Assembly: GCA_943736015.1 (NCBI GenBank)
Contig: OX031065.1
Location: forward strand, 1,991,501-2,055,500
Direction: 5' to 3'
DNA length: 64,000 bases
Source: Tridacna crocea
Lineage: Eukaryota > Mollusca > Bivalvia > Cardiida > Cardiidae
Below the pieces are notes generated by a model. The model saw nothing but the letters and a program-made list of their open reading frames with translations, searched no databases and had not been told where the DNA came from. Position numbers and translations under genes: made by a program. Positions 1-64,000 of the stretch are shown in pieces. How positions within the stretch are numbered: position 1 is the first letter of the stretch; each line of letters opens with the position of its first letter.

Positions 1-705
1 ATCTAGAAGACAAGTCAAAAGTTGCCGGCTGCTGTGGCAGCTGTGGGTCCTAATCAATCCCTGCAAGTCTTGAATTTGTTTGGCTGTCTGTTCTTGGAGG
101 ACTTGCAAAGTTACCATATCCATCTGTGTTTTCAATGGGCTTTGCCTGGGTGCAGGCAAAGGTGATTTGGGTGGCTCCAGATGGAGAGTTCGTTTAGGCG
201 GAGAAACCAACTTATCAAATTACTCAGTTTGTGCAGAATGTGTAACGGGTTTCTCTATATTTTGCACAGAAGGTCTAGTTTGACGGGGTGGGGTTTGTAA
301 AGTAGCAGCAGTCTTTGGAACTGTTGTCAATTCCGAAAACAATTGCTCAAAACCCTGGCTTTTCTTAGTAGGCCGTATATCACTTTGTGACAAAGGCCTA
401 CGTAGCTGATCCTCAGTTTAACTTATTTGAGACTCAAGTTCAGCCCTTTCTGGCTCTAGTGCGGTTAAGGGAGGAAGTGGCAAACTCTTATCTGCCCTTT
501 CTCTCTTTTAAAGTTGTTTTTTAGAAGGAACATTGAAATCTAATTGGTTCCAGGTTTCTTCCTCAACTGCCCCCATCATCATCATGGAGAACGCCATTTT
601 CGTCACCGGACCATACATATCTCTATGGTAGACAATGGCCTCTGCTCTTTTTTGGCCAATGCCTTTAAATAATGCTGCAGAGTTGGTTAGTTGCAGTTTT
701 GATGT
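1..705 (-). pseudogene. Decayed coding relic with helix-hairpin-helix-like segment
   Basis: One minus-strand frame runs from about 705 to the left window edge and reads as protein-like sequence interrupted by several in-frame stops. Near its upstream end it reads LFKGIGQKRAEAIVYHRD followed by MYGPVTK, which matches the helix-hairpin-helix pattern G-I/V-G-x-K-R/K-A and resembles, from memory, the C-terminal HhH of the kinesin KIF22. Downstream come Pro/Lys-rich stretches (PPRQTRPSV, SPPKRTLHLEPPKSPLPAP) and a Gln-rich helix-like part (LQVLQEQTAKQIQDLQGL). The stops argue for a dead copy. The HhH lies upstream of the disordered part, which is not the KIF22 order, so a different HhH protein or a gene carried by a mobile element is possible. 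It is cut by the window edge. Confidence 0.5.
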
Positions 706-1163
706 TCATTCTGCTCATTTTTCCAAAGAGAAATGAATACAGGCAATTTTTTGTGTTTAATCAAAAATTAAACAAAATGCAAAACCTGCAAGGAAAAGGC
801 ATGCAATTTAAACAAAACAAAGAAAGCAATGACTGACAGTTAAATTCAAGTGCTTAGAAAGAAAGTGTACCTGAAAATAACAGAAAACTTTCTAATTGTA
901 AATAGGTGGATGGGGTAATAGTACAGATAACTATCCCCAAAGGCGATGTTACTTTTTGACTGGTCGCCTCTGGGTACAGAGACAATCCTCTGACTTCGTG
1001 AACGTCCACACAGCAGATTGTCAGGTGAGAGAGTGAGCGAAGAGAAATACTGGTTCCCTATTTCAATTTTACCCGCCACTCTGGTTTCTCAGTGACACTG
1101 GTACCCAGCGTCACTCCAATGGCAAGATAACGGAACTGTGTTTGAATATCGTCATGACTGTTT

Positions 1164-1170
1164 TATAAAA
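1164..1170 (+). promoter_or_regulatory. TATA-box-like motif
   Basis: TATAAAA followed by GG sits in a repeat-free stretch (about 706-1480), with a GC-richer segment 30-80 bases downstream. It could be the core promoter of the plus-strand gene whose coding exons start at 4635. No transcript data are available here. Confidence 0.25.
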
Positions 1171-1489
1171 GGACATCCCGAGCTGTTACCTGAAGTTCGC
1201 AGAAACACAGCAGTTTGAAGAACATTGCGCGAGGCGGCGTTAAAAAACACAGAATTGAATATTACCCAAAATTCCGAAAGTACAAAGGTCGTACTTGTTA
1301 TAAATACTTTCATCAATAATGTTAAACAGTTAGCTTGGGGGGAAAGGGGGGGTCGTAGATCAAGATCAGTCTACACCCCCCTCCCCAACATGCTTTCTGA
1401 ATCTCTGGTCTAAGACTCTGCCGGGATATTCTTGAAAAAAGCAAACATGAAACTACGATCATTCGAGTCTACCATGCTGATAAGATGCT

Positions 1490-1733
1490 TTGGGCTTATT
1501 TAGCACGCTAATGGGTAACCTTTACAACACAATCCATTGGTGTAGAATAAAACTTTTGAAAATATATAAGGAAATGGAGAAAATACTTAGATCTACCAGC
1601 ATTTCCCTTTTTTTTTTCCCACACAAAGTTTTTTACCCTTTCAGACACAAATTTCATCATTTGTGCAACATTTTTTCTTCTGTATACTTTGAATTTGACC
1701 AGCCTAAAATTTTGTCAATGGGAAAAGGGTTGA
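1490..1733 (+). repeat. Family A MITE, very degenerate
   Basis: Only the long arm is clear (CCAGCCTAAAATTTTGTCAATGG near 1700, ending in a GGAAAAGGGTTGAC tail). The hairpin is reduced to a weak match around 1575-1620. Confidence 0.5.
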
Positions 1734-1810
1734 CATTAACAATGTCTTTCCTATTCGCCCTCGTTCTTTTATTCTGTAGAAAGCTCTAAATTTAGATTTC
1801 TCTCCTGTAG

Positions 1811-1874
1811 ATCAAGTTTCCAGTTGTTTCCAAATCAAGAGAATTGACAGGCCCCAAACAGACCAGAAAGAAAG
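1811..1874 (+). other. Exon-like segment, possibly 5'UTR exon
   Basis: A 64-base segment lies between a good acceptor (TTTCTCTCCTGTAG) and a good donor (AAAG then GTAGGA). It contains no ATG and does not connect in an open frame to the start at 4635. It would therefore fit only as a non-coding leader exon of the plus-strand gene. This is an inference from splice-site shape alone. Confidence 0.3.
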
Positions 1875-1904
1875 GTAGGAAACATATTAGCAATGCTCTA
1901 TGAA

Positions 1905-2065: not shown

Positions 2066-2294
2066 TTAACCCATTACCACACAATCCCGACTTTTGACGA
2101 CCCTGGGAAAGAAGTCTTTAGAAAACATTGTGAGGAAAGGAGAAAATGCTGGTAACCAGCATTTTCTCCTTTTCTCACAATGTTTTCTACCCTTCATAAA
2201 ACAAATTTCAAACTTACAGTCACTTTCATTTGGTTGTCTGAAAATGTCTTCAATTTGGACAAGCCAAACATTTTGTCATTTGATAATGAGTTAA
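2066..2294 (+). repeat. Family A MITE, complete
   Basis: TTAA at both ends, full short arm, hairpin centred on GCTGGTAACCAGC, and full long arm. It is a good reference copy of the family. Confidence 0.9.
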
Positions 2295-2826: not shown

Positions 2827-3003
2827 GGCGACAAAATTTTAGCCTTGTCCAAAATTGCAAGTATTTGCAGACAATTTCAGGGTGGCTCAAATGGTGCAAT
2901 GTTTCTTTGACAGGGTAGAAAACATTGTGGGAAAAGGAGAGAATGCTGGTTTCGAAGGCCTTCTTTTCCAGGTGCGTGTAAAGTCAGCATTGTGTGGTAA
3001 AGA
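2827..3003 (-). repeat. Family A MITE, right hairpin arm disrupted
   Basis: The long arm and the left hairpin arm are recognisable. The right arm is replaced by unrelated bases, although the short-arm end (GTCAGCATTGTGTGGTAAAG) survives. Confidence 0.7.
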
Positions 3004-3019
3004 TTTTGGACAAAATTAG

Positions 3020-3239
3020 TTAACACTGCCAAATGACAAAATTTGTCACTGGTCTAAATTCAAAGCATAAATTTACAGATCTATGTAAAATTGAATGTAT
3101 CACCAATTAGAATATGTGTGTCTTAGGGTAGAAAACATTGTGGGAAAAAGAAAATACTGGTTACCAGCATTTTCAACTTTTACGATAAGCCCTGTTACTT
3201 TGGGTTGTTAAAACTTGGGATTGTGTGGTGTAGAGTTGA
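3020..3239 (-). repeat. Family A MITE, diverged
   Basis: Begins at a TTAA about 17 bases after the previous copy, in the same orientation. The hairpin is eroded on the right side. Confidence 0.65.
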
Positions 3240-3580: not shown

Positions 3581-3810
3581 TTAACTCTCGACCAAGTGAC
3601 AGAACTTTAGACACGTCCAGATTCAAAGCTTTTGCAGATGACAAAAATCATGTGACTCAAAAATTGAAGTTTGATTCGGGAAGGAGCTGAAAACATTGTG
3701 GGAAAAGGAGAAAATACTGGTTACCAGTATTTTCTCCCTTTACCACAATGTTTTCAAAAGGCTTCTCCCTCAGGGTCGTGAAAACCAGGGATTGTTTGGT
3801 AAAAGGTTAA
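3581..3810 (-). repeat. Family A MITE, complete
   Basis: TTAA-bounded. The hairpin tip is ATACTGGTTACCAGTAT instead of the usual ATGCTGG...CCAGCAT, with the same change on both arms. Confidence 0.9.
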
Positions 3811-4244: not shown

Positions 4245-4460
4245 CTAACCCATTACCATACAATCCCAATCTTTAACGACCATGAGAAAAAAGCCTATTG
4301 AAAACATTGTGGGAAAAAGAGAAAATGCTGGTAACCAGCACCTTTCCAACAATCTTTTCTACCCTTCCCAAGTCAAATTTCAAATTTTCAGTCGCTTTTG
4401 TCGTCTGCAGATGCTTTCAATTTAGACAGGTCTCAATTTTATTCTTTAGTAAAGAGTTAA
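4245..4460 (+). repeat. Family A MITE, shortened hairpin
   Basis: Both arms are present. The right hairpin arm has lost about 15 bases (CCAGCACCTTTCCAACAATC), so the stem is asymmetric. Confidence 0.8.
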
Positions 4461-4795: not shown

Positions 4796-6577
4796 GTGAA
4801 AGGCTTTTTTATATATCCTTCCTTATACCTCGCTAGGTCCCGTAAGCGCAGTTGGTAAAATACATGGCTTGGGATCAAGAGTTTGCATTCCCAACTTCCA
4901 TATTTTTTTTCCTGATGATTGACGATAGTCATTGCAGCCGGATTCATTTCTATCTTACCACTGATCGTTGTTTAGACAATGGCTATGTAGGAAAGCAGCC
5001 AGTGGCTTTGAAAGAAAATAGTGCAAAGTAGTGGTAAAAGAAACTTAAGGAAAGCATGAATAGATGCACTTGCCACCGCAAAAAAATGGCAAAAATCACC
5101 ATACAATCAATGACTCCCTAACCCTCAAACCCTTTACTATTACTCCATCATTGCCAACCAAAAAATTCTACTTTTTGTCGGGGTTTAAGGTTGAGTTTCA
5201 CTACTTTTGAAAATAAAGGTTATAGTTAGTATTGGTTGGCAGATAGTGTAGATCAAAGATCAGACTGTACATTTTGTGCAGTCTGATCTCGTTCTATGCC
5301 ATCCAGAAAAGCATCATACGAACCATAATGAAATAGTTGACCAGCCCAAGGCAGAAAGGCTTTTCGGAAAGCAGAAAACGCATATGACAAGCAATTTTTT
5401 CTCTTGGTTCAAGTACCAAAGGGGTCTCTTGTGGCTAAAATTTTGGATATTTGATCATGAGTCTTCAAGTACAATGTCCATCTGCTGTACTGGTCAGGCG
5501 AAAATTGCCCTCAGGCAAGGCACTCCAGAGCCCTTGCTCAGCACCAGTGACCTAAGGCACACAAAGGCAATCTGCGACATTGATAAATGACATAATGTTG
5601 ACCATGTTACCATTTACCGGTCTTACAGTGTTCTCAATCACACGCCAATCATGTTATACAATTGAAATTCACCCAATAAATTTTGGTTACGCACGAGACG
5701 TCACATAAGAAATAAATGGACAAAAAAGACCATTATCTGCTTGTCTTGTGTAGAATAACAGGTTTTGAAGTTACGTTTTACCCTTATTAACGAATTTTGT
5801 CAAATCATGCACAGATACCTATCCAAAAATTAACATACATGAAAAATTAATCGGTGCAAATAACACAGAATGAGAAGGCTTTTAAAACTCAATGCAGGAA
5901 AGAAGAAAATCCTGGTATCCAGCATTGTCTTCTTTTCCAGCAATGTTTTCCATCTTTTCAAAAACAAGTCCCATATTTGAGCCACATTTAATTTGTTCCC
6001 TGCAAATAGTTTTAGTTTAGACAAGGCCACAAGTTAGTAGTCTGTTAAGGAGTTATGAATCTTATTCTCTTTCAGACAGTCATTAAAACAACAGATGAAC
6101 AAAGTACATGGCAGTGTAGATTCCAGATTTTCTGACAGCAGTAACAAACCATTTAGAAATCCAATTCTCTTTCTACCCACAACAACAACTAACGAATCAT
6201 TTGACATGAACAGTGCTACATGCAGTTTTAGTTCACTCTCCCAAGAGAGCACCGACTCTAATTCCGGAAAACAACTTATGTTTAGCTGCCCAGTGGACGA
6301 AGATGACATCAACGACACGTTCAATCTTCCATGTGAGGATGACGATATTACGACTAACGAGGCAAAACCTGGCGTGACTTCAAAAGGACTGAGTAACACT
6401 GATGGTGGTGGTTTAGACAATACATCAACTGGGTTAGACATGCTAACACAACAGTTATTTATGTCTGATTCCCTTACTCAGCTAGGCGATGAACAAGGAT
6501 TTCTTACTCCTGCATATTTTAAACCAGAAACTGGAACAGTGACCCTATTGTTGCCAAACTTACACCCTGAAACTTAA
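4635..6577 (+). CDS. Two-coding-exon gene, 220-residue acidic Ser/Thr-rich protein of unknown function
   Basis: Coding exons are 4635-4795 and 6076-6577. The start is the first ATG after an acceptor-like TTTTTTTGTCATAG ending at 4564. It has G at -3 and +4, and an in-frame TAA lies just upstream, so the upstream part of this exon would be leader. The first exon ends ...LSLKR in phase 2 at a GTGAAA donor. The second begins after TATTCTCTTTCAG and supplies the one missing base, giving Arg then QSLKQQMNKV. The stop is at 6575-6577. The product has no signal peptide or membrane segment. It has acidic runs (NNSDDEDG, PVDEDDIND, PCEDDDITTNE), many Ser/Thr, and a more hydrophobic end (FLTPAYFKPETGTVTLLLP). 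I do not recognise the family. The clean phase match and long open second exon support a real gene. Its 3' end faces that of HAUS4. Confidence 0.65.
4818..5070 (+). repeat. SINE S1, tRNA-derived
   Basis: The tRNA-like head (GTAAGCGCAGTTGGTAAAAT, then a diverged B box near GTTTGCATTCCC) is followed by the S1 body (GGATTCATTTCT, GGAAAGCAGCCAGTGGCTT, GAAAGCATGAATAG). It begins only 22 bases after the donor at 4795. Confidence 0.65.
5235..5300. repeat. Family D palindrome
   Basis: TGTAGATCAAAGATCAGACTGTAC and its near-inverse GTGCAGTCTGATCTCGTTCTA form the family D core. Confidence 0.6.
5300..5861. other. Intron sequence, nothing identified
   Basis: Intron of the plus-strand gene. A 104-codon frame starting at 5276 has no recognisable domain and begins inside a repeat, so I do not call it. 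Confidence 0.4.
5862..6055 (+). repeat. Family A MITE, degenerate, abutting a splice acceptor
   Basis: Hairpin remnants (GAAAATCCTGGTATCCAGC) and a diverged long arm end about 20 bases before the acceptor of the exon at 6076. The family arm therefore supplies part of the sequence in front of that exon. Confidence 0.6.
6076..6577 (+). CDS. Terminal coding exon of the 220-residue protein
   Basis: One base plus 166 codons and TAA. It stays open from the acceptor to the stop and ends LLLPNLHPET. Confidence 0.7.
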
Positions 6578-6733: not shown

Positions 6734-6962
6734 TTAACTCCTTACCAAACGATAAAATTTTAGACTTATCCAAATTGAAAGCACTTGAAGACGACAAAAT
6801 ATAAGTGACTGAAAAATTGAAATTTGTTTGGGGACGGGTAGAAAACATTGTGGGAAAAGGAGAACATGCTGGTTACCAGCATTTTCTCCTTTTCCCACGA
6901 TGTTTTCAAAAGGGTTCTTTTTCAGGGTCGTCAAAAGTCAGGATTGTGTGGTAAAGGGTTAA
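6734..6962 (-). repeat. Family A MITE, complete
   Basis: TTAA on both sides and an intact hairpin. It lies about 160 bases after the stop of the plus-strand gene, probably in or just beyond its 3'UTR. Confidence 0.9.
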
Positions 6963-7321: not shown

Positions 7322-7595
7322 TGCCATATGGCTTGCAACACGCAAAAAGGGGCATTCGGACTTTTGCGTAAAGTGTCGTTTCGGATTAGCCTGTGCAGCC
7401 AGCGCAGGCTAATCTGAGACGATACTTTCCATTTTTATGTGATTTTCTGTTTTGCACAAGTCTACTGTATCAGAAAGTCTAATGTAGTGGTCAAGTGATG
7501 TCCGGGATTAGCCTGCGTGGACTGCGCAGGATGATTCGAGATGACACTTTACGTAAATGTCCGAATACCCATTTTCGCGTGTTGCAAGAGATATT
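7322..7595. repeat. Family B palindromic MITE, long form
   Basis: GCAACACGCAAAAAGGGGC start, two palindromic cores, and an inverse end CCCATTTTCGCGTGTTGCA. It directly follows the partial copy. Confidence 0.8.
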
Positions 7596-7775
7596 GGAAG
7601 CATTCAAAGATGACAAATCAAATATGATTTATATAACAAGATTTACCTTCTCAAAGATAGAGAGCATTGTGGGGAAAATGAGAAAGAAAATGCTTGTTAC
7701 CCTTTTCCTACAGTGTTTCCAAAAATCCTTCTTCATGGTCATACTAAGCCAAGGATTAATCATAGAGAGTTAACA
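7590..7775 (-). repeat. Family A MITE, degenerate
   Basis: Long-arm remnants, AGAGCATTGTGGGGAAAATG, a broken hairpin tip, and a short-arm end CCAAGGATTAATC. Confidence 0.55.
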
Positions 7776-8044: not shown

Positions 8045-8254
8045 TTAACTCTTTACCACGCAATTCAGACTTTTAACAACCCTGAGATAGAAGCCTTTTG
8101 GAAACATTGTGGGAACCAGCATTTTCTCCTTTTCCCACAATGTTTTCTACACTCCCAAAATCAAAACTCAATTCTAGATTCACATTTATTTTGTTGTCTG
8201 CAAATGCTTTCGATTTGGAGTAGTTCAAATTTTTTTCATTTGGTAAAGAGTTAA
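8045..8254 (+). repeat. Family A MITE with deleted left hairpin arm
   Basis: TTAA-bounded. The left stem stops at CATTGTGGG and joins directly to AACCAGCATTTTC, so the hairpin cannot form. Confidence 0.85.
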
Positions 8255-8402
8255 CCAAGTCACAAAATTTTGTACTTGTCCAAATGAATAAAATTGCAGA
8301 AAACAAAATAATGTGGCTCTGGTGCCGATATCTACATGTATCTTTCAAACGAAAGAAAACGCTGTGGAAAAGGAGAAAATACTTGTAACAAGGATTTCTT
8401 GA
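8251..8402 (-). repeat. Family A MITE, truncated, head to head with the previous copy
   Basis: Shares its TTAA (8251-8254) with the preceding copy in opposite orientation. It breaks off at AATACTTGTAAC, 49 bases before the HAUS4 stop codon, and so probably forms the HAUS4 3'UTR. Confidence 0.65.
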
Positions 8403-8451
8403 GCTTTTTTCAAACTGCTTTAACGCCTCTTTTTGTTTTTCTTTTCTTGCT

Positions 8452-8632: not shown

Positions 8633-11600
8633 CTGAAATAAATGAAAATATGAGTTCATATATTTATGTTACTTGGGAATTAATAACTTGGTGTTTTTTC
8701 GCCACTATCAACCTTACTTCAGTCATATCACAGAAATGGCTTGCCTATTCATGTATGTCCTGTTTCTCAGTAGGCTAGGGGTTTGAAGTGTCATGCCCAT
8801 TAACATTCTCTTGAAAAACCCATTGCTTCCAGTAAAGCTTGAACCCAGGGCCTCTTAGTAATGAGTCCAGCACTTTACAACCAAGCCACACGGGACCCAC
8901 TGTCACTTGGATTACATCAGAGACCTACAGTATATCATGTGAAGACAACTGAATGAGCTATGGGGCCACGTCAAGTAATTTCTCCTGTTGTTGAAAACCA
9001 AGGTAACAAGAGCACAACATGTGGGTGCCAACCCTCTGCTAAAAGTGCTTGATTTTCAATAATAATCCTTTGCAGAAAAAAGGGACATATTTTTGTCAAA
9101 AATATTTTGAAGGTTACCTGCCACTGTTGCGTAACTTGCACAGTTTCTGTTATCAGTGTATTCAGTAATAAAAGAGATATTGCAGGATGTCAAAGTTTTC
9201 ACACTACTCTGCACTGATACAGATAATCAATAAAGGGCTATGACAATAACTTATTGTTTTCTTCCAAATCACCCATGCAAAAATATTTTCTCTTTCGACT
9301 GAAATAGGTCTTGTGGCTACCCACTATAGTTTTCTCATTGTAACATTTTTAACCCTTTCCTCCATAGATACTCATTTCTACACATTGCTTGTAGGAGCCT
9401 TTGGAAAACATTGTGGCAAAAGGTGAAATTGCTCATGACGAGCAATTTCACCTTTTACTACAATGTTTTCTATGCTATCAAAAGGTGTCATATACACATA
9501 AGAAAGAGCTTCATCCTTGCTGTTATTTTGGGTGAATTAGAGATACAATAGAAATGTCTTATGGGGTAAATGGTTAAAGAATAAAAACATAATTTAATGC
9601 AGGAATGTATCAGAATTTGTTGACCCACTCTTATCTGGACCATTGTAAAAAGCACTGTGTTAATTTGAAAAAAAAAACCGGCCTAATCTGGCTGATTTGC
9701 TTTGGCCATTTTTCTCAAATACAAGACGAAAGGCTCCTTTTTGCAGCAACCTTGTGTTTTACACTGTGAAAAAAAAAAGGTGAAACAGTCAGCCTAAGAC
9801 ATCTTAACGTATCTGTTACATACATTTCTATTTTGGTTTTGCTCTTTTTGCTTACAAAAAATGGGAGACCACGCTTTCAAAAGAATTCCTTTGTAAAGAT
9901 GGTAAGAAAAGAGGTAAACTTGGTAAAGACTTAACCCATTACCAAACGACAAAATTTTAGACTGGTCCAAATTGAAAGCATTTGCAGACGACAAAATAAA
10001 AGTGACTGAAAATTTGAAATTTGTTTTGTGAAGGGTAGAAAACATTGTGGGAAAAGGACAAAATGCTGGTAACCAGCATTTTCTCCTTTTCCCACAATGT
10101 TTTCTAAAGGCGTCTTCTCAAGGGCGTCAAAAGTAGGGATTGTGTGGTAATGGGTTAATGTATCTGTTACATACATTTTTATTTTGGTTTTACTCTTTTT
10201 GCTAACAAAAAAGTGGGAGACCACGCTTTCAAAAGAATTCCTTTGTAAAAATGGTAAGAAAAGAGGTAGACTTGGTAAAGGCTTAAAGAAAAAGTTTTAA
10301 AGATGCAAACCTAACAACCCTGAGTGACTGGACTGTTTCTACTGTATATGTATCATAAAGTATCTGTAATTCAATCAACCTGTAAACCGGTAAAAAAAGA
10401 GTTGTAATGAATGAATGAAAGAATGTTGTTTTATGGCGCATCGACAGCTTTGGTCATTTAGCGCGCATATCTACGTTAAAAGATAATAAATGTGGAGTTA
10501 TTTAAACTGAATAAAGTTTGAATGACAATAAAAGAATTGAATTAAGAAAATTTAATACATATCGAGTTACAGGGCAATCCCTATATACTCAAGTTTTAAA
10601 TGATAAGAACTGAATTAAGAAGTATGCGTAAAGGGCTTTATCGAGTTACAGGGCAATCCCCATATACTCAAAAGTTTTAAATGATAAGATTTAAGAATGT
10701 GATAAAAAGGTTAAAACTCAATGCTGGTTTGATAAAAAGAAGTTTTTAAATGAAAAAAAAAAAAAGAAATGTGTCATTTATAATGTGCATAAAAGAGTGT
10801 AGGACAAAACCCCCCATGGACAAAACCCCCCTAGGACAAAACCCCCCTAGGATAAAAGCCCCCTAGGACAAAACCCCCATCATATATAAAAAGCATATAA
10901 ATTTGAGAAAACACACATAAATTGCAAACAGTTTTAAAGTATTGAAAACAAGTCTGTTTGATTTAAGGAAAAAAATCAAACATGAAAGGCAAAAAATGAT
11001 TTAGATATTATCTTATTTTAATTTGTACCTTAAGTTTGTTGATGATTTCAATTGATATATCAAACCCTATGCAGACTTGGGTAAGACAGGTGTTGAGAAG
11101 GGATTAAGACACCTGATTTGCAAGTTTACACCTGTCATATTCACTAATATTTAGTAGTAGATTTGAACATATAAAAGCACCAAATAAGAAAAAAAAAATC
11201 CTTTGATTAATATATAAATGATTTTTTCCATTGTATGATTGCATTTATAATTTATTATGAATTTATTATGAATATATTGAGAAAAAAACACGTTTTTGGT
11301 CATAAAGCAAATTTTTAAGAAAAAAAATTATTTAAATCATTATTACATAAAACATTATTTTTTACAACCCCCACAAGTATTTAAAGCAGTAAATTTTATT
11401 CAACTTTAAAATGATTGTAAAAAAAAAATCATTTTAAAACCATGGGGGTTTTGTCCACTTTTCAGTTAAGGGTATGGGGTTTTGTCCAGGGGGGTTTTGT
11501 CCATGTGTGTTTTGTCCTAGGGGGGTTTTGTCCTAGGGGGGTTTTGTCCGTACCCCGCATAAAATAAGATATTGAGTGGCTGGGCGTCCCTGCCTACTCC

Positions 11601-14600
11601 AAAGCATTCCGACATCTGTGCAAATTGTCGCGCAGTCCGCACAGGCTAATCCGAGGCAGCACTTTACGACTATATTATTAGTTGTCCGGTCAGCTGGCAG
11701 GGGACTTAGAAACCTCTTCACGGTTGTAGTGAATCATGTCAGCTCCAACCGAAGGCAAGGTGGCCATATGATTTGACACAGCCTTGAACAAGTTTTCAAG
11801 TCCCCTGCCACCTCACTGTACAACAAATTTATTATACTGCAAAGTTTTACTCTTTCAAAGCACATTAAGCGAAATTTTCCTGTATTATAATCTCACGAAT
11901 CGAATATGCTGACAAAATAGAAATTACCTTCTGAAAGCCCCAATTCAATGAAAATTGACGTCACTGGAAAGTGACCTCACTAAAACATGCAGTTTGGTGC
12001 ATAAATGTGCAGTCTGGTGATCAATCGACGCCGCCATTTTGGATGTTGTGTTGCATGTGTAGTGATGTTTACAGGGCACTCAAAAGGGAAAATGGTTTCA
12101 CGTGATTTTTGCCAGGGAACATGATATACTCGTATATGTTCCCGTCATGTTAACCAATCAGATCATGAGAAATTTCTTTTCAGTATAATAATATTATTCT
12201 GTCAGATCACATGAAATTTCTTTTCAGTATAATAATAGTTTTTGTGCTACAGTAGACTGGCACAAAGCAGAGAATTATATTAAACCTGAAAGTCTTGTTT
12301 TGGATAAGTCTGTGCAAACTGCCCGAGCAGACTTATCCTACACTGCACTTTTTGCTTATGTCCAAATGCTCCTTTCTGTATGTTGCAGGCTGTATACTTT
12401 TTGATAAAAGGTACAAGTGTAACTTAATCAAGAAAAATATTTACAGAAATCAAACCATACCTTATTTTCAAACACATGGCATCACATTTAGCAAACAACC
12501 ATTCTGTGGTTATTGTATCAAGCTCTGTCTGATTCTGTAATTTGTATTTTGTGAATAACTTCTCTAACAATTTAAGTGACTCTATCAGTTTCTGCAATAA
12601 AAACTTGGATTTAGTACAAACATATAAATACTGGGCTATGCTCTGTTAAAAGGAGATTTAATGGATCTGAAAAATTATTGGTAGGAAAAACACTCAAGTA
12701 CATGTAGTTAACTCATTACCAAACGACAAGATTTTGGACACATCCAAATTGAAACCATTAGCAGACGACAAAATAAAAGTGACTGTAAATTTGAAATTTG
12801 TTTTGTGAAGAGTAGAAAACATTGACGGAAAAGGAAAAAAATGCTGGTTACCAGCATTTTCTCCTTTTCCCACAATGTTTTCTAAAGGCTTCTTTCTCAG
12901 GGATTGTGTGGTAATGGGTTGACTCTTAAACCTTTCCCAAACAATCCCTGGTTTTTACAGGTCAGGAATAGAAGTCTTTTGAAAACACTGTGGGAAAAGG
13001 AGAAAATGCTGGTAACCAGCATTTCCTCCTTTTCCCACAATGTTTTCTACCCTATCATATAGAAAAATCATCTTTTTAGCAACTCTTAAGTTGTCATCTG
13101 CAGAATGCTGTCAGTTTGGTGTGTCCTATATTTGCCATTTGGGAAAGAGTTAACCAAACGGCAAAATTTCAGACAACTCCCAAATTGAAAGCTTTGCAGA
13201 ACTACAACAAAATACCCAGTAAGAGTGATTCAAAATTTGAAATTTGTTTTGGTAAGGGTAAAAACAGTGTGGGAAAAGTAGAAAATGCTGCCTACCAGCA
13301 TTTTCTCCTTTTCCAACAAAGTTTTCAAAAGGCTTCTTTCATATACTTGTGACTTCAAGGGTAACCTTGACCTTGGACCTACTCAAGAAGATGGTTCAAA
13401 TGGCACTTGCTGCAAAACTCGCAAATGGCACTTGCAGGGTTCGAAATTCCCACATATTTACTCGCAAAATGCAAGCCAGAATTGGAAAATGCGAGTTGAA
13501 ATGTCAAGCACTTGCAAAAAAATGCGAGTGCAAATTATTGAAGAACAGTTACGGAATGTACTTAATTTCATATGTGAATACAAAAAACAAGAGGGCCATT
13601 GGCCCTGGAACGCACACCTTTGACTAAGGCTTATGAATGAAATTCAATACTTTGAGCAACTTTGGTAAAGCTTCACCCAAGGAACATCCCTACCAAGTTG
13701 CATCAAGATTGGCCCAGTGGGTTAGGAGAAGAAGATATTTAAAGAAATTGTTGACGGGCGACAGACGCCGGACATAGGGCAATCAAATATCATAAAGCTC
13801 TACACCTTCCAGTTTCAAAGAAGAATTTTACATTTTCCTTTTTTGTCCTATGTTCGAACTTATGGTCCCTGGGCATGGGTCACTTTTAACCAAAGCAGCA
13901 TCCTTGGAACAAACTTGGAACAAACTTGGTAGAGGTCCACTCAAAGATGCTACATACCAAGTATTAAGGCTCTACACCTTCCCGTTTAAGAGAAAAAGAA
14001 ATTTAAAATTTTTCTTCTTTTTCTTCTTTGTTCCTATGTTCCAACGTGTAACCTCCAGGGCAGGGCCGGTTTAAATGCCAGGGACATCATATGACCAAAC
14101 TTGGTAGAGGTCCACTAGAAGATTCTGCATACCAAATATCAAAGCTCTGCACCTTCAAGTTTCAGAGAAGATTTCTAAAGTTTTCCTTCTTTGTTGCTAT
14201 GTTCGAACCTGTGACCTCCCGAGGCAGGGCCAGTTTTGACTCCAAGGGCCCAACTTGGTAGAGATCCACTAGGAATTGCTACATGCCAAATATCAGCTCT
14301 ATGCCTTCTAGTTATAGAGAAGAAGAATCTTAAAATTTCCATTCATTGTTCCTATGTTCGAACTTGTGACCATCGGGGCAGGGCCAGTTTTGACCCCACG
14401 GGCATGATTTGAACAAACTTGGTAGAGGTTCACTAGGAGATGCCACATACCAAATATCAAAGCTCTATGCCATCTAGTTTCAGAGAAGAAGAAATTTAAA
14501 GTTTTCCTTTTTTGTTCATATGTTCAAACTAGTGACCCCCGGGGTGGGGCCAGTTTTGACCCAAGGGACATTATTTGAATAAACTTGGTAGAGGTCCACT

Positions 14601-17600
14601 AGGAGATACAACAGACCAAATATCAAAGCTCTATGCTTTCTAGTTTCTGAGGAAAAGAATTTTAAAGTTTTCCTTCTTTGTTCCTATGCTCAAATTTGCG
14701 ATCCCCGGGGTGGTGCCAGTTTTGACCCCAGGGACATAATTTGAACAAACTTGGTAGAGGTCCACTAGGAGATGGCACATATTAAATATCAAAGCTCTAC
14801 GCCTTCAAGTTTCAGAGGAGAAGATTTTTAAAGTTTTCCTTCTTTGTTCCTATGCTCAAACTTGTGACCCCCAGGGTGGGGCCAGTTTTGACCCCAGGGG
14901 CATAATTTGAACAAACTTGGTAGAGGTCCACTAGGAGATGTCACATACTAAATATCAAAGCTCTACGCCTTCAAGTTTCACAGGAGAAGATTTTTAAAGT
15001 TTTCCTTCTTTGTTCCTATGCTCAAACTTGTGACCCCTGGGGTGGGGCCAGTTTTGAACCCAGGGACATAATTTGAACAAACTTGGTAGAGGTCCACTAG
15101 GAGATGCTACATACCAAATATCAAAGCTCTACCCCTTCTAGTTTCAGAGGAGAAGATTTTTAAAGTTTTCCTTCTTTGTTCCTATGCTCAAATGCGCTAA
15201 AACGCGTTATCCCCCGGGGCTGGGCCATTTTTCATCCTAGGGGCGTAATTTGAACAAACTTGGTAGAGGTTCATTGGGAGATGCTTCAGACCAAATATCA
15301 AAGCTCTACCCCTTCTAGTTTCAAAGGAGAAGATTTTCAAAGATTTAGTTTTTTTTTTTTTTGTTGCCATGGCAACCAGAGTTATGGGTGGAATTAAATT
15401 CTTTGAACAATTTTGGTAGAGCTTCACCCAAGGAACATTCCTGCCAAGTTTCATGAAAATTGGCCTAGTGGTTTAGGAGGAGAAGATGTTTAAAGAAATT
15501 GTTGACGGACGACGGACGCCGGACATTGGGCGATCACAATAGCTCACCTTTAGCACTTTGTGCTAAGATGAGCTAAAAAGGGTTATTCTTTTCGTTCTAG
15601 ATTAACATTGGTCATATTGCACTGAGAATGCCCTTCGACAGCTATTGATAATCAGCCTATACATGTCGCCATTGAAGCCTATAGCTACGAGAAGCAAGTC
15701 GGACGTGGTGGAATCGCTAAACCAGTTACCGAACAGGCAGATATTCGGATGTGACACGTCCATATTTCATTTACAAAATCGTCCACCATTGTAAGTTTGA
15801 TTGAAATTTAACTTGGCAGTAGAACAGAAATTCAACTGGAATTGAACTGATTTTTAAATGAGGGTTTTAATGTCAATTAACGTTCCTTTTGTTTTGTTGT
15901 TGTCTCGGTTGACAGGTTACGTTATAGAATAGAACTGAAGAGTTTGTACTGGCCATTCCTTCTTTACAATTGTTAGGCAAGCTGAGCTTTAAAAAAAAAG
16001 TCCAGTTTTAATTTTGCAAGTGGAAATAAAAGCCACTTGCTAATATTTGAAAGTGGATGAAAAAATGAAATTCGAACCCTGACTTGTACTTGGGAACAGA
16101 ACGAGAATAATTGTGCTACGCAATCCTGAAATCTATCCACATATGTAGAAGTTTTTATCCAGAAAAATATGGACAGATAAATACATGCTCCACCCTTCAC
16201 TATAGGGGATGACTGATTGTATGGTGTTTAACAAAGGGGCCAGTGCACTTATCTATGTGTTACTGGAAATTCTTTTACCAGAACTTCAAACAATTTTCTT
16301 TCTAAGCCACCGGCTGCTTTCCCACATGATCATTGTTGAAATAATGGTCAGCAGTGGGAGAGGAATGAATCCTGTCGAAGTAATTGGCCGAGCCAGGGGT
16401 CATGGCCAGGGATTGAACCCTGGACTCTGTGTTCTCAAGTCCTAAGCTATAGGGGAGTGATCTTCAAGTGTGACCTTGAGCTTGGACCTACCCCCAAAAA
16501 TAGTTTAAATGTCACTTCTACTGACATAAGGAATAATTGTGCCACATTATTCTTAAATCCATCCATAAATGTAGAAGTTTTGGTCCAGACTGACAAATCT
16601 GGATGGACAGACAGATAGATAGACATACACACCCACAGACACGACATTGTGACAAAGGTGTCTCACTCATTAAAAGCACACTCAAGAAATAAGGATTGTT
16701 TGATAAAAGACAAATCTGATGAAATGTCAACTTCATTAATTTAGCGCTCAAAACATTAATGAATTTCTAACAACCAAAATGTGTTTTTTATCGGCACTGT
16801 TTACCTGGTAGTATAATGAAAACTGTTTCTCTCGTTTCCAATAATCATCCTTCAACAAAGCCTGTTCCTCCTTTAAGTATTGTATATCTGACTCGACTAT
16901 GGCTGGTAGTTGGAATGATTTGGCAAACATTAGTTTACTGCCATCTGTGTGAAATCAGAAGTAGAAAATTAACCAGTTACTACACGAGCCCGAGAAGAAG
17001 GCTTTTGAAAACATGGTGGAACTAGCACTTGTTTTTCTACAAAAAAGCAGGTCTTCCCACCCACCTTTTGGTGCCAGAAGGATTAATAATCCATAATAAA
17101 GTTAATAACATTTTTCCCAGATTTCTATCGTGGACATGAATTGGTATGTAAAATGACTAGGGAAAATAATCAATGGGAAATAACTCAAAAATATACAAGC
17201 CAGAGTTATGGTTTTTGTGCATGAAACTTTGCCTTATATTGCTTTACAAATGTATGAAGTTTTATCAAAATATCTTAAAAGGTTTCCAAGTTATGGAGGA
17301 GACACGATTTGCGACAGACAGACACACGGGAAAAAAACAATGTCTACCGAGTCTGATGGAGGGGGGGGGGAAAGACATAAAAAGGAGAAAATGCTGGTAA
17401 CCCAAAATGTTTTCTACCCTTCCCAAAACAAACTTTAATTTTTGAGTCACATTTATTTTGTGGTCTGCAAATGCTTTCAATGAAGACCTGTCTAAAATCT
17501 TGTCACTTGGGAAGGAGTTACTGAATCTGCCTCTAATTTTGCACTTTGTTATTTGGAAGTTGTCTAACCACAGGCTGTAATACATGATGTCAAACAAGAG

Positions 17601-34292: not shown

Positions 34293-34301
34293 ATTACATA
34301 T

Positions 34302-40894: not shown

Positions 40895-41103
40895 ACTCTT
40901 TACTAGACATTCCCTGGTTTTCATGACCCTAGAGAAAAGCCTATTGAAAACATTGTGGGGGAAAGGAGAAAATGCGGGTAACCAGCATTTTCTCCTTCTA
41001 CCCTTCCAAAAACAAATTTCAATTTTTGAGTCACATTAATTTTGTTGTCTGCAAATGCTTTCAGTTTTGGCGCGTCAAAAATTTTGTCGTTTGGTAAAGT
41101 TAA
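40891..41103 (+). repeat. Family A MITE, right stem partly deleted
   Basis: The right stem goes from TTCTCCTTC straight to TACCCTTCC, losing the CCCACAATGTTT block. Confidence 0.82.
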
Positions 41104-41418: not shown

Positions 41419-41644
41419 TTAACCCTTTACCAAACAATCCCTGGTTTTTACCACCCTGAGATAGAAGCCTTTTGAAAACATTGTGGTAAAGGAGAAAATG
41501 CTGGTAACCAGCATTTTCTCCTTTGCCCCCAATGTTTTCTACCCTGCTTGAAACAAATTTCAAATTTTGAATTGCTTTATTTTTGTCCTCTGCAAGTGCT
41601 TTCAATTTGGACCAGTCTAAACTTTTTTTTTAGCAAAGAGTTAA
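41419..41644 (+). repeat. Family A MITE, complete
   Basis: TTAA-bounded. Confidence 0.9.
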
Positions 41645-42733: not shown

Positions 42734-42959
42734 TTAACTCATTACCATACAACAATATTTTAGGCTTGTCCAAATGGAAAACGCTTGAAGGCGACAAAAT
42801 AAGAGTGACTAAAAATTTGAAATTTGTTTCGTGAAGGGTAGAAAACATTGTGGGAAAAGGAGAAAATGGTTACCAGCATTTTCTCCTTTTCCGACAATAT
42901 TTTCTAAAGGGTTCTCACTCAGGGTCATCAAAAGTAGTGATTGTGTGGTAATGGGTTAA
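42734..42959 (-). repeat. Family A MITE
   Basis: TTAA-bounded. The stem tip is shortened on the left (AAAATGGTTACCAGC). Confidence 0.88.
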
Positions 42960-43085
42960 ATCTTTACCAGACGACAAAATTTAGACTTGTCTAAATTGAA
43001 AGCATTTGCAGACGACAAATTGAATGTGTATAGAATATGTTTTGGAAAGAGAAGAAAACAATGTGGGAAAGAGAGAAAATGATCA
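42956..43085 (-). repeat. Family A MITE, truncated
   Basis: Shares TTAA with the previous copy, same orientation, lost after the left stem. Confidence 0.75.
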
Positions 43086-44245: not shown

Positions 44246-44377
44246 GGTGATGGGTCACAAATGTAAAATTGTGTGTCTCACATATTTTCAAAAATAGTCT
44301 TTATAATTTGGCAGCTGAAGGATCAATAATTTGTTCAGTCTGTTCTTAGTAGATGATATTACCAGCGTTTCATTTCC

Positions 44378-44454
44378 TTTTTCCTCAAAGTGTTGGGAAA
44401 AGGATCTTTCTGCTAGGTCGTTAAAACATAAGATAGAATGGCAAAGGTTAAACA
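44378..44454 (-). repeat. Family A fragment
   Basis: Right stem and short arm only (AAGTGTTGGGAAAAGG...GGCAAAGGTTAA). Confidence 0.5.
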
Positions 44455-45101: not shown

Positions 45102-45310
45102 TTAACCCTGTACTACACAGCAAAATTTTAGACTGGTCCAAATCAAAGCACTTGCAGACGACAAAATAACTGTTATTCAAAAATTGAAATTTGCTTCTAG
45201 CAGGGTAGGAAACATTGTGGGTTACCAGTGTTTTCTCCTATTCCCTCAATGTTTTCAAAAGGGTTCCATCTCAGGGTTGAAAAATAAGGGATTGTTTGGT
45301 AAAGGGTTAA
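45102..45310 (-). repeat. Family A MITE with deleted left stem
   Basis: CATTGTGGG joins directly to TTACCAGTG, so the hairpin is lost. TTAA at both ends. Confidence 0.82.
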
Positions 45311-46895: not shown

Positions 46896-47124
46896 TTAAC
46901 TCATTACCAAACGACAATATTTTAGGCTTGTTCAAATGGAAAGCACTGGCAGATGACAAAATAAAAGTGACTGAAAATTTGAAATTTGTTTTGTGAAGGG
47001 TAGAAAATACTAGGGGAAAATGAGAAAATGCTGGTGTCAGAATTTTCTTCTTTTCCCACAATATTTTCCAAAGGCTTTTTTTCCTCATGGTCGTCAAAAG
47101 TAGGGATTGTGTGGTAGTGGGTAA
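46896..47124 (-). repeat. Family A MITE, diverged hairpin
   Basis: Counterpart of the copy at 62986. The stem tip is broken here (GCTGGTGTCAGAATTTTC). Confidence 0.8.
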
Positions 47125-47667: not shown

Positions 47668-47894
47668 TCAACTCTTTACCAAACAAACACTGTTTTTTAC
47701 AACTCTGTGAAAGAGGTCTTTTGAAAACATTGTGGGAAAAGGAGAAAAATGCTGGTAACCAGCATTTTCTGCGTTTCCCACAATGTTTTCTGCTTTTCCC
47801 AAAACAAATTTCAATTTTGGAGTCACTTTAATTTTGTCGTCTGCTAATGCTTTCAGTTTGGAATAATCTAAAATTTTGTCGTTTGGTAAAGAGT
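47668..47894 (+). repeat. Family A MITE, complete
   Basis: Both end TTAAs mutated (ATCAACTC and GAGTAGG). Hairpin intact except for one extra A. Confidence 0.85.
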
Positions 47895-47896: not shown

Positions 47897-48640
47897 GGGA
47901 AGACAATCCTAATTGACAGGATGTACGATGGTTTCTCTACGTACATGTACATTAAATCTTTACCAAACGAAAAAAATTTAGACTGGTCCTTATTGAAAGC
48001 ACTTGCAGACGCCAAATTAAACTCAACTCAAAAATTGAAATTTGTTTCCAGCAGGGTAGAAAACATTGTGAGAAAAGGAGAAAATGCTGGTTACCAGCAT
48101 CTTCTCCTTTTCCCACAATGTTTTCAAAAGCCTCTATCTCAGGGTCGTAAAAACCAGGGATTGTTTGGTAAAGAGTTAATCCCTTTAGGCTGGTGAGCGC
48201 GACTTACTGATCTTTTGCGGAAAGCATAGATCAAGATCAGACTGTACAGAATGGGTTAAATAATAAACCAAAGACATTTGTACTTAAGGAAGACAATCCT
48301 GATTGACAGGATGTAAGATGGTTTCTCTACATACATGTACATTAGTCCCCTGTAGGCTGGTGAGCGCAACTTACTGACCTTTTGTGGACGGCATAGATCA
48401 AGATCAGACTGTACAGAATGGGTTAAATAATAAACCAAACTGGCACATTTGTACTTAAGGAAGAGAATCCTGATTAAGAAGATGTAAGATGGTTTCTCTA
48501 CATACATGTACATTAATCCCTGTAGGCTGGTGAGCGTGACTTACTGACTTTTGCGGACAACACAGATCAAGATCAGACTGTACTGGGCATACAGCCCGAT
48601 CTTGGATCAACACTGTTCGATAAGGAGAAATATTTCCTTC
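47897..48640. repeat. Tandem units of about 170 bp with family D cores
   Basis: AGGCTGGTGAGCG(C/T)(A/G)AC, AGATCAAGATCAGACTGTAC, GGATGTAAGATGGTTTCTC and ACATACATGTACATTA recur three times. The first unit is split by a family A copy. Confidence 0.85.
47952..48179 (-). repeat. Family A MITE, complete, nested in a tandem unit
   Basis: TTAA doubled. The empty version is ACATGTACATTAATCCCTGT at about 48502. Confidence 0.93.
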
Positions 48641-48733: not shown

Positions 48734-48930
48734 TTAACTCTTTACCATACGAGAAAATTTTGGACTGGTCCAAATCGAAAGCATTCGCAGACAACAAGAA
48801 AAAAAGGAGATTAAAAAATTGAAGTTTGATCTGGATAGGGTTAACAGAATTTTCTCCTCTTCCCACAATGTTTTCAAAAGACTTCTTTCTCAGGGTCGTT
48901 GAAATTCGGGATAGTGTGGTAAACAGTTAA
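48734..48930 (-). repeat. Family A MITE with deleted left stem
   Basis: GGGTTAACAGAATTTTCTCC replaces the hairpin tip. TTAA at both ends. Confidence 0.8.
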
Positions 48931-53289: not shown

Positions 53290-53465
53290 TTAACTCTTTA
53301 CCAAACAATACCGACTTTTAACCTTTGGAAGAAAAAGTCTTTTGAAAACATCGTGGGAACTGGAGAAAATGCTGATAACCAGCAATGTTTTTTCTACCCT
53401 TCCCAGATCAAATTTCAATTTTTCAGTCACATTTATTTTGTTGTCTGCAAATGCTTTCAATTTCA
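53290..53465 (+). repeat. Family A MITE, truncated and with right stem deleted
   Basis: Counterpart of 33012. The right stem is missing (AACCAGCAATGTTTTTTCTA). Confidence 0.8.
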
Positions 53466-53539
53466 AAAGCACCGTTGTGATAGACTACATGTGATAGAGT
53501 GATAGAGTAGCAAATAAAAGTCCGAGTCGCACTCTGTCA

Positions 53540-61628: not shown

Positions 61629-62091
61629 AAAGTTCATCTTGTTAAGCAACAGACAAACAGACAATAGTTATTTGATTTTATTTCATAAAATGACATGTTA
61701 TCAAAGAAGGGGTCTAAATGCGTAATTTCATTATGGACCAATTACAGTCAGTTTGCCCATCCATCCACCTTGACGGATATCTTCTAAAGTCCTTGGCATT
61801 TATGAAGGATAGTCTTTTGATACAATTTTCTTCTGTAAGATGTGTCACAGAAAAAGCTGTTGCCTTTCACATACTGGACTTGGTGAGCCCCGATAGATCA
61901 GTCAGTAATGTTTGTGAGCTGTTAGTCTAGGGTTCCCAGTTTGGGCTGGCTTGATTACTGTCTCGCTCAACATCCTTTTGCATTTGATCAAAAGTTAGTA
62001 AGACAAGTCTCATTTGTGTCTTACCAAAGAGCGAATGATAGTTTAATCTGTCATTGGACCACTATTTTGACGAGGAAATTAATACCTGTAA
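61629..62091. other. No feature recognised
   Basis: A 70-codon frame at 61718 has no recognisable similarity. No shared repeat. Confidence 0.45.
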
Positions 62092-62239
62092 GGTAAGGGA
62101 GCAACACGGAAAATATTGATGATACATGTAGAAAGTAGGTTATTGAGAAACAATGGTTATTGTTGATGCCATGTTCCTAAAACAGTATTGTTTATTCAAC
62201 TTCCTTGACTTTCCCTTCCCGTTACAAATAACGTTTTTT

Positions 62240-62472
62240 TGATTGATTGAATGTTGCTTTACGCCTCTTTCAACAATATTTCACTCATATGACCAGGACA
62301 GGTCCCATATTCGTATACATGTTTATCCTGGTTGTTACCTTTACATGGCTAGGGCTCTGCTGTGTCATGCCCAAGGGTACTGCCATGAAAGTATTACTGG
62401 ATCTTGTGTGGCTTGAACACAAGGCCCCCAGATCACAAGTCCTATACTGTACCACTGAGCCACGCAGAAACA
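62240..62472 (-). repeat. SINE S2, tRNA-derived
   Basis: Duplicate of the copy at 46150 with the same ends. Confidence 0.85.
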
Positions 62473-62985
62473 CTTTACAAGTAATGGTACTTTCATGCGA
62501 AACGTTTTAGTTGCTTCATTTGATGCTACAAATATTGTTTCTCGTCCAATGTTTCAGTCTTCATAGGTATCTGTTTTTGCAGTGTTGAAGTTAAAATATA
62601 AATACATGTGCATAAAGTTAAATAATTTTCCTGTAAAAAGCTGATGTAAGAAAAACCTTTCATTTTGGAAAGAACCAAAACTAAACAGACTCTAACCAAA
62701 TACTTGTACATGTATTGTACACTGAAGGCATGAATCGGTGCAAGAGGAGGCAGAGTAGATCAAGATCAGACTTATTTCATCCTCGGGAAAACACTGTTAT
62801 AAAGCAGGCAAGATGTTTAGGCAAAAAGTAGGTCATTTAGTTCACATTTTGGATCTAGATCAGATTGTATAAGTATTGTGTACAATAGTAGGTTCTACAG
62901 TAGATAGTGTATATTAAGATCAGACAGTATTTTAAGTCAAAAGTAGGTGCTGGCCCACTTAGTCTACTTAAAGATCAGAAACTAT

Positions 62986-63172
62986 TTAACTCATTATCAA
63001 ACGACAATATTTTAGGCTTGTTCAAATGGAAAGCATTTGCAGATGACAAAATAAAAGTGACTGAAAATTTGAAATTTGTTTTGTGAAGGGTAGAAAACAT
63101 TATGGGAAAATGAGAAAATGCTGGGTACCAGCATTTCCTTCTTTTCCCACAATATTTTCCAAAGGCTTTTTT
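62986..63172 (-). repeat. Family A MITE, short arm replaced
   Basis: The hairpin is better kept than in its counterpart at 46896 (GCTGGGTACCAGC). It ends at GGCTTTTTT, where another repeat begins. Confidence 0.82.
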
Positions 63173-63800
63173 ATGCTCCCCGAAGGGCGAGCATATAGTC
63201 GCCGCTTCGTCTGTCCGTCCGTCCATCCGTCCGAAGCCATTTCTCCACAACCCTTGGACCAAATTGGATAAAACTTCATATATGAACTCCTTAGGGTAAA
63301 GTGCCGACATCTCTTTCCCGGTTTTTCAATTTGACCTTGTTTCATGGAAAGAAAGGGGCTTAATGCAAAATTGCAATTTTTACTAATATCTCATTCAGTT
63401 TTTGTCAAAATATCATGAAACATCGTGGTTATATTGTTTATGGAAAGTTTCAGCATGTGCCCGTGCACTTTTAATTTAGGCATTTTTTAAGTTGACGTTC
63501 TGTCATGGAAAAAGGGGGTTTCTTGCAAAATTCCAATTTTTACTAATATCTCTTTCAGTTTTGGTTAAATTTCATTAAACTTCATGGTTATATCGTCTTT
63601 TCAAAGTTTCACCATGTGATCTTGTTTCTTTATCGATGTGTTTTTCAATTTGACCCTCTGTCATGGAAAAAGGGGGTTTCTTGTAAAAAGCCAAGAAAAA
63701 AGGGGCCCTTGGGACCCCTGAAATCCGGAAAACAAAGTATCATATAATAAGACGAGTGCGTTTTCGGTGGGACCCCCCATGAGAAAGATATCTGGATCCG
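63172..63800 (+). repeat. ATGCTCCCCGAAGGGCGAGC-type repeat with tandem units
   Basis: Starts TATGCTCCCCGAAGGGCGAG, with a GTCCGTCC stretch and about two to three units of roughly 160-170 bp (CAATTTTTACTAATATCTC, TTCATGGTTATATCGTC, TTTGACC). It replaces about 210 bases present in copy 1 of the block. Its right edge is uncertain. Confidence 0.6.
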
Positions 63801-64000
63801 CGCATGGACTAAAAACTAAGACAACACTTAATGCTATAGCAAACTGTGGATCAAGATCATGCTGTATGTTAAGCACAATATCAATGACTGTAGCAGGCAA
63901 TTGAGATCTTTTTCAGAATACGCACCTAGCTTAAAAGAAGATGCAAAAAGCCAAGATCAGACTCTACCGAAGGCAAATAAAGTTATTAACAGTTCGGATG

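Follow-up and report, generated by a model that had tools for sequence, protein, structure and literature searches.

Why should a transposable element keep a long palindrome intact while the sequence on either side of it changes? The question is raised by a 64,000-nucleotide stretch of the genome of the bivalve Tridacna crocea (GenBank assembly GCA_943736015.1, contig OX031065.1, positions 1,991,501 to 2,055,500, forward strand; hereafter the window), in which one family of short repeats bounded by TTAA, here called family A, recurs about once per kilobase and has a hairpin away from its centre. We conclude that this miniature inverted-repeat transposable element (MITE) belongs to a known kind of element, here taken to an extreme. 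What is new, and can be tested, is a long palindrome that has stayed symmetrical while its surroundings changed.

The 229-bp element and its abundance

In the family A consensus, a short arm of 55 bp, counted from its terminal TTAA, leads to a palindrome of 67 bp at positions 56-122; a long arm of 107 bp follows and closes with a second TTAA, which is counted in its length. The palindrome is perfect, with 33 pairs round a single centre base. Among the 65 full copies in which the hairpin was located, the short side is exactly 55 bp in 50 and the long side exactly 107 bp in 38; 28 of the 65 are exactly 229 bp long, and most others lie within a few bases of that length. Both arms were recognised at 140 of 224 hairpins, one or both being unrecognised at the remaining 84, and the order was short arm, hairpin, long arm in all 140. 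The inverted ends agree over roughly their first 16-18 positions with few mismatches, the short-arm end reading TTAACCC[T/A]TT and the long-arm end TTAAC[T/C]C[T/A]TT. The initial annotation of the window had described this asymmetric layout, with a terminal motif inverted at the two ends and a conserved foldback of about 65 bp; all of this holds except the length, which is 67 bp. As single-stranded DNA, the hairpin of one copy folds at -36.3 kcal/mol, compared with -6.6 kcal/mol for shuffled sequence. With the short arm placed first, 71% of hairpins from the window and 19 sampled stretches (L009-L027) have A as the centre base and 17% have T, and inversion of the palindrome could account for those with T. 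We also considered that arms might be swapped through the palindrome to give short-short or long-long isomers, and none was present among the 140 hairpins with both arms recognised.

Allowing up to two mismatches, the end motif matched the window 82 times, compared with 3.5 matches expected from dinucleotide shuffles, and pairing of these ends gave 33 candidate elements (30 without overlapping alternatives), most of them near 229 bp. From 87 full copies, taken from the window and 19 genome stretches, we built a 229-position profile for nhmmer, the source copies of the first profile having been picked by their ends and hairpin motif. Searched with this profile, the window yielded 65 copies without overlap, of which 34 are full, 14 short-end, 11 long-end and 6 internal. 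They lie on the plus strand in 28 cases and on the minus strand in 37, and together cover 18.4% of bases; reversed sequences searched with the same profile gave no match. The 64 whole or partial copies and the mixed orientation reported initially were therefore accurate, although two of the 65 (9349-9484 and 34302-34520) score higher under the model of a sister family, B, which is described below. The same search found no MITE copy between 53466 and 62986. A Pfam scan of 10 of the window's 35 open reading frames of at least 100 amino acids (aa) gave no match.

The initial annotation had allowed that so high a density might be merely local. We searched the whole genome (1,048,827,098 bases in 31 contigs, with C1-C18 of 40-77 Mb each and C19 of 57 kb) for the exact degenerate end motif and found 428,980 ends (214,387 + 214,593), whereas the reversed-pattern control gave 24 + 23. 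We also sampled 22 stretches of 10 kb (19 + 3; 220 kb), placed at round coordinates on C1-C18 and thus not a random draw. These contained 248 copies, which corresponds to 1.13 per kb (bootstrap 0.82-1.45) and to 19.7% of bases (14.0-25.8%), with 0 to 28 copies per stretch. Extrapolation gives about 1.18 million copies in the genome (0.86-1.52 million), fragments counted in, a number comparable to that of Alu. Because 22 arbitrary stretches match the window in density, we conclude that the abundance is genome-wide and that the window is typical of the genome.

Conservation and compensated changes of the hairpin

In full copies, divergence from the consensus is 7.3% in the hairpin, 19.6% and 21.3% in the two arms, and 12.6% and 12.0% in the 16-base ends. 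If family A were an ordinary MITE, its hairpin would simply hitchhike, and the apparent conservation would come from the way copies were detected and from a few founder subfamilies. Subfamilies are indeed present and, as would be expected on this account, the closest pairs of copies have decayed nearly alike, with a hairpin distance of 0.050 and a mean arm distance of 0.065. Among distant pairs, however, the hairpin distance is 0.110 at an arm distance of 0.274, and 0.221 at an arm distance of 0.467. Since the closest copies are near parity and the hairpin lags only at a distance, slower decay after insertion does not suffice to explain its conservation. An artefact of searching with the hairpin does not suffice either, because models of the arms alone still found a hairpin enclosed by 164 of 168 pairs of short and long arms; for spacers shorter than 100 bp the figure is 144 of 147, the other 21 pairs having spacers longer than 100 bp that may join neighbouring copies. 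The arm-only models also picked out shortened spacers in several copies. At 18913-18931 of the window, all that is left of the hairpin between the arms is AGAAAACATTGTTTTCTA, a symmetrical collapse that looks like a palindrome-driven deletion.

Changes within the hairpin were counted in 113 of the 120 hairpins of exactly 67 bp (103 of them distinct); two repeats from a tandem array in stretch L036 and five from one in L020 were left out. In this set, 92.6% of cells pair. Cells with both sides changed number 77, compared with 15.2 in shuffled data and 20-31 in slid registers, and for each of five measures all of 500 shuffles fell short of the real data. Subfamily kinship makes these cell counts non-independent, and because related copies inflate them, finer tests, between families and by level, are needed.

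The first such test is offered by family B, of which there are nine copies in 284 kb, with the same 229-bp length and the same hairpin position. Compared as two consensus sequences, the arms of A and B in register are identical at 20 of 41 and 37 of 93 positions (40-49%), which is above all other registers tried and near saturation, whereas the hairpins are identical at 58 of 67 positions (87%); the outermost 12 bases of the two families are alike. The hairpins differ at the centre base and at exactly four pairs (14, 21, 26 and 31), every one of them compensated, and all four are G-C/C-G or A-T/T-A swaps, for which no G.U intermediate is possible. Copies in L023, L025 and L022 carry only some of these pair changes and look like intermediate lineages. 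Genome-wide, perfect 31-bp cores number 183,553 for A and 15,594 for B, with a single A/B arm hybrid (the centre base was restricted to A or T in the search pattern for A and left free in those for B and the hybrid). No exact core match was found in viral or in bacterial and archaeal collections. A second family that shares the hairpin through compensated changes was absent from the initial annotation and is a new point. For an ordinary MITE with a hitchhiking hairpin, we would not expect near-saturated arms beside a hairpin at 87% identity, the lack of any uncompensated consensus pair, or one hybrid core against 199,147 pure ones, and we regard that explanation as very unlikely. A symmetrical hairpin amid strongly changed sequence suggests, instead, that the hairpin helps the element to spread.

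Two other ideas about the hairpin bear on the A/B comparison. That it moved as a module between unrelated elements is weakened, because the arms of A and B are detectably homologous in register. That its centre is an inner copy of the terminal TTACCA was rejected, because the family B centre (TCGTSACGA) does not follow the end of its own family (TTTACTCC). A possible recombinant, in which a B hairpin and B short arm stand next to an A-like long arm, lies at about 6585-6902 of L026.

At the level of individual copies the pattern is different. In 313 copies, compensated types seen at least three times total 91, compared with 20.0 expected, whereas those seen at most twice total 29, compared with 20.4 expected. 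Because the excess sits in shared types and rare types are near chance, compensation appears to be mainly inherited from source lineages and to be weak in individual copies.

These counts bear on the strongest rival explanation, that the palindrome has no function and is kept symmetrical by quasi-palindrome correction, in which template switching at replication forks uses one arm to restore the other. Template switching is documented and has been proposed as a source of compensatory stem changes for which no selection is needed (PMC8794818); it would fit the four A-to-B differences, all swaps without a G.U intermediate, as well as doubles beyond independence in individual copies. Such doubles do occur. 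Genome-wide, pair 26 (A-T to T-A) is changed on both sides in 33 copies, compared with 2.6 expected, a clear excess though a tiny one beside 1,392 singles, and pair 28 (G-C to A-T) in 139, compared with 47 expected. However, control doubles at non-partner positions number 95 + 109 = 204, compared with 90 expected; because these doubles also exceed expectation, the excess at pair 28 is probably mostly age heterogeneity among copies, and with a 2.3-fold excess among non-partners, template switching explains little of the 2.9-fold excess at pair 28. This argument is limited by pair 26, whose 12.5-fold excess is left unexplained by the non-partner control. Copies that pile up as many as 16 mismatched pairs of 33 are also at odds with efficient repair of one arm from the other, as are rare compensated types near chance beside recurrent ones well above it, and template switching alone leaves unexplained why only 13% of hairpin sites have changed between families whose arms are near saturation. 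The weak copy-level signal limits template switching without removing it, and we consider it an unlikely but serious explanation of the symmetry.

TTAA insertion, a probable piggyBac link and a proposed role of the palindrome

Usable flanks and TTAA at both ends were present in 75 of 77 full-model copies, a count that is biased in that the model itself contains TTAA. We joined the flanks of the 75 complete copies and sought uninterrupted paralogues. An element-free paralogue was found for nine, with a single TTAA at the site in six and TTAG in one; the single-TTAA sites include those of the window copies at 30003-30241, 34987-35218 and 35987-36216. In addition, eight pairs of neighbouring copies share one TTAA. 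Copies are short, numerous (about 1.13 per kb) and uniform in length at about 229 bp, as MITEs are, and the single-TTAA empty sites together with TTAA-CYC ends fit a piggyBac-type non-autonomous element. Kolobok, the other TTAA superfamily, has purine-rich (A/G) termini; the C with which family A ends begin would speak against it, no search for a Kolobok transposase having been made. The terminal motif of piggyBac-type MITEs has been defined as CC[C/T]T beside TTAA (PMC2872659), and among the family A variants CCCT fits this motif while CTCT, CTCA and CCCA fall outside its strict form.

The piggyBac transposase family (PF13843) has 118 matches in the genome, many with intact frames, and we infer that a transposase partner of this family is encoded elsewhere in the genome. 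We inspected 15 of the 118 loci, eight of them by their flanks only. Both ends were found at four of the 15, all beginning TTAACCC (TTAACCCTTTATATAC, TTAACCCTAGTCATGC or a one-base variant of it, and TTAACCCTTTCAGTGC). Several piggyBac lineages have open frames and near-identical copies (C18:19006660, C10:28376412, C3:59405428 and others), two such copies, L033 and L034, being 99.6% identical over 2.75 kb, which suggests recent activity. One piggyBac-bearing locus with a 591-aa frame has a hairpin at the edge of a 180-bp inverted repeat (L049 582-646, L048 120-150), with the outer sequence of the family (GAAAACATTGTG) and an inner stem that is different yet still largely paired. We did not accept this hairpin as proof of the transposase partner, because decayed hairpins also surround other piggyBac loci, such as L029.

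The explanation that we favour, with a confidence that goes about halfway, is that the family is a piggyBac-type TTAA MITE whose off-centre 67-bp palindrome acts in cis, as DNA, in the mobilisation of source copies, which either require it or at least benefit from it. A piggyBac-family transposase encoded elsewhere in the genome would move family A, and source elements would be selected for dyad symmetry or pairing; symmetry would be kept because copies with a broken palindrome would found fewer daughter copies, and ordinary copies would simply decay once inserted. The palindrome would function at the level of DNA: a transposase dimer might bind it as a dyad site, or it might be extruded as a hairpin. 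The elements piggyBac and piggyBat likewise have TTAA targets and asymmetric ends with subterminal palindromes, asymmetrically placed and 19 bp long in piggyBac, shorter and imperfect in piggyBat, which are bound by two cysteine-rich domains of the transposase dimer (PMC11707139). By analogy, an off-centre dyad would fit this end plan. Both elements are, however, autonomous, and the parts of that account used here describe no perfect 67-bp foldback (PMC11707139). The length of the palindrome and its pair swaps would also allow an extruded hairpin. A more specific form of this idea, in which the palindrome is a structurally selected extruded hairpin (for pairing rather than sequence) that possibly couples excision to replication and lies behind the roughly one million copies and the fifth of the DNA that they occupy, strikes us as doubtful; if true, an extruded hairpin has turned a non-autonomous element into one of the largest single constituents of an animal genome.

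Several observations weigh against a cis-acting role of the palindrome in a piggyBac-type element. Even in individual copies there is a pair-specific excess, seen at pairs 26 and 28, as mutational correction would give. Symmetry is not absolute either, since some common hairpin alleles lack compensation: the partner is complementary in only 2 of 34 copies with C>T at position 6 and in 1 of 28 with G>A at position 12. A strict form of the proposal also has to contend with the individual copies in which up to 16 of 33 pairs are mismatched, and with a cluster of six copies that has one unpaired consensus position. TTAA is absent from the site in two of the nine paralogues free of the element, whose alignments are at 72-76% identity and gapped at that point, and TTAACYCWTTACCA, the family A end, is not the terminus of any of the 15 inspected piggyBac loci, out of 118. 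Finally, known transposase-bound palindromes are about 14-19 bp long, not 67 bp (PMC11707139). We conclude that symmetry is favoured in source elements but not enforced in every copy.

A further possibility, that the hairpin is kept as RNA, is one that we consider quite unlikely. Copies transcribed within introns or untranslated regions would fold into a stem of about 32 bp and be diced to small RNAs, and the stem would be maintained in this way. A whole copy does form a very stable RNA foldback (-81.9 kcal/mol, compared with -38.8 kcal/mol shuffled), and there is a precedent in Made1, a MITE palindrome that folds into a stable hairpin and gave rise to the hsa-mir-548 microRNAs; in Made1, however, the whole 80-bp mariner-derived element consists of two terminal inverted repeats (TIRs) round 6 bp, whereas the family A palindrome is internal and apart from the TIRs (PMC1784062). 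Mismatches of the G.T/T.G type in the stem (285) are no commoner than those of the A.C/C.A type (314), and thus give no strand-specific hint that RNA wobble is tolerated, and the A-to-B swaps avoid wobble intermediates. Typical microRNA precursors have large loops, unlike the 3-nt loop of the family hairpin, and no Rfam family reached its gathering score within the window. The initial annotation was thus right that a single MITE family with a conserved foldback dominates, at about one copy per kb, but its view of the family as a strong candidate source of hairpin RNA is not supported so far. Hairpin conservation is better read as a DNA-level constraint on source elements.

The nearest precedent for such an element is the CMITEs of the coral Acropora. 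These are also piggyBac/TTAA MITEs with CCC-type ends, tandem arrays and a transposase partner only partly identified, and they carry a 75-bp internal region that is more conserved between families than the TIRs; in 2010 this region was proposed to play a part in transposition (PMC2872659). Families A and B share this trait, with hairpins at 58/67 and arms at 20/41 and 37/93 identical positions. CMITEs, however, are about 100 bp long with about 1,600 copies in A. millepora, compared with 229 bp and about 1.2 million copies for family A (PMC2872659). Perfect stems in the printed 60-bp CMITE internal query do not exceed 5 bp, whereas the region in family A is a 67-bp palindrome with compensated changes, and comparison of the query with family A gave no local similarity above shuffles on either strand. 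Among the literature matches listed, none concerned family A or a palindromic TTAA MITE in molluscs.

Window copies, tandem arrays and the place of the family in the genome

The copies in the window are collected in Table 1.

Table 1. Copies of families A and B in the window, from the 229-position profile search. The 67-bp hairpins listed belong to the set of 113 hairpins of exactly 67 bp.
Copy	Positions	Strand	Hairpin	Basis and remarks
A full	1519..1731	+		nhmmer, 83 bits
A full, 229 bp	2066..2294	+	2121-2187	226 bits
A short-end	2829..3004	-		profile
A full	3024..3237	-		profile
A full	3581..3810	-	3689-3755	profile
A full	4246..4460	+		profile
A long-end	5864..6055	+		profile
A full	6734..6962	-	6841-6907	profile
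A internal piece	7592..7754	-		profile
A full, shortened hairpin	8045..8254	+		end pairing and profile
A long-end	8252..8429	-		profile
B copy	9345..9581	+	9404-9470	262 bits as B, 80 as A (A model 9349-9484); compensated pairs 21, 26, 31
A full	9931..10158	-	10038-10104	profile
A full	12708..12921	-		profile
A full	12926..13153	+	12981-13047	profile
A long-end	13151..13347	-	13260-13326	profile
A fragment	16980..17021	+		profile
A long-end	17380..17520	+		profile
A full	18060..18283	+	18106-18172	profile
A fragment	18569..18667	+		profile
A fragment	18722..18810	+		profile
A, two listed pieces (18824-18926, 18920-18985)	18824..18985	-	collapsed to 18-bp remnant, about 18913-18931	profile and arm-only models
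A long-end	18992..19099	+		profile
A full	19798..20026	-	19905-19971	profile
A full	20271..20497	-	20378-20444	profile
A long-end	20607..20811	+	20643-20709	profile
A full	20849..21064	-	20946-21012	profile
A fragment	21079..21158	-		profile
A fragment	21303..21372	-		profile
A fragment, long-end	21734..21838	+		profile
A full	22400..22624	-	22507-22573	profile
A short-end	22629..22832	-		profile
A long-end	22833..23022	-		profile
A full	24668..24896	-	24775-24841	profile
A fragment, short-end	28729..28783	+		profile
A long-end	28976..29154	+	28988-29054	profile
A full	30003..30241	-	30111-30177	profile and flank join; empty-site paralogue 15430-15557, one TTAA
A short-end	33012..33205	+	33065-33131	profile
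A internal	34129..34294	-		profile
B full (element 34302-34520)	34301..34525	-		244 bits as B, 65 as A
A full	34987..35218	+	35045-35111	profile and flank join; empty-site paralogue 39177-39267, one TTAA
A full	35461..35689	+	35516-35582	profile
A full	35987..36216	-		profile and flank join; empty-site paralogue L022:4656-4778, one TTAA
A short-end	36509..36700	-		profile
A full, 229 bp	36805..37033	+	36860-36926, perfect	profile
A full	37219..37444	-	37325-37391	profile
A full	38478..38700	+	38532-38598	profile
A full	39392..39620	+	39448-39514	profile
A full	39699..39922	-	39806-39872, perfect	profile
A short-end	40079..40242	+		profile
A fragment	40467..40506	-		profile
A fragment	40853..40892	-		profile
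A full	40893..41099	+		profile
A full	41419..41644	+		profile
A full	42734..42959	-		profile; TTAA shared with next copy (42956..43081)
A long-end	42956..43081	-		profile
A fragment	44359..44449	-		profile
A full	45102..45310	-		profile
A full	46896..47124	-		profile
A full	47669..47894	+		profile
A full	47952..48179	-	48059-48125	profile and flank join; empty-site paralogue 48288-48406 reads TTAG
A full	48734..48930	-		profile
A short-end	53290..53466	+		profile
A long-end	62986..63172	-	63093-63159	profile

Parts of the MITE have been recruited into tandem repeats in three stretches outside the window. In L020, MITE hairpins recur every ~1.69 kb (540, 2237, 3930, 5625, 7317 and 9012) within a tandem repeat that spans the whole stretch; positions 1-3060 of L036 hold a 920-bp tandem unit carrying identical MITE copies; and an array of ~39-bp units at 9504-10000 of L017 is made from the short-arm end. 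The window itself contains a ~166-bp satellite in long arrays on both strands (13918-15346, 30612-31028 and 56309-59443) and further arrays at 25011-26511, 26507-27249, 48931-50496, 53540-53892 and 60929-61435.

A cut-and-paste element at Alu-like numbers is unusual. The annotation of a T. crocea assembly lists 34.9% of unclassified DNA transposon in 2,578,864 elements, with DNA elements dominant, and the parts of that report used here describe no family (PMC10858879); family A may account for part of this large unclassified share. Its palindrome bears on the open question of what internal sequences allow certain MITEs to become so extremely numerous. The genome offers a single palindrome in hundreds of thousands of natural variants, together with internal controls (arms and hairpin, paired and unpaired doubles, family A and family B), such that selection for pairing and mutational template switching are separable in this genome by counting.

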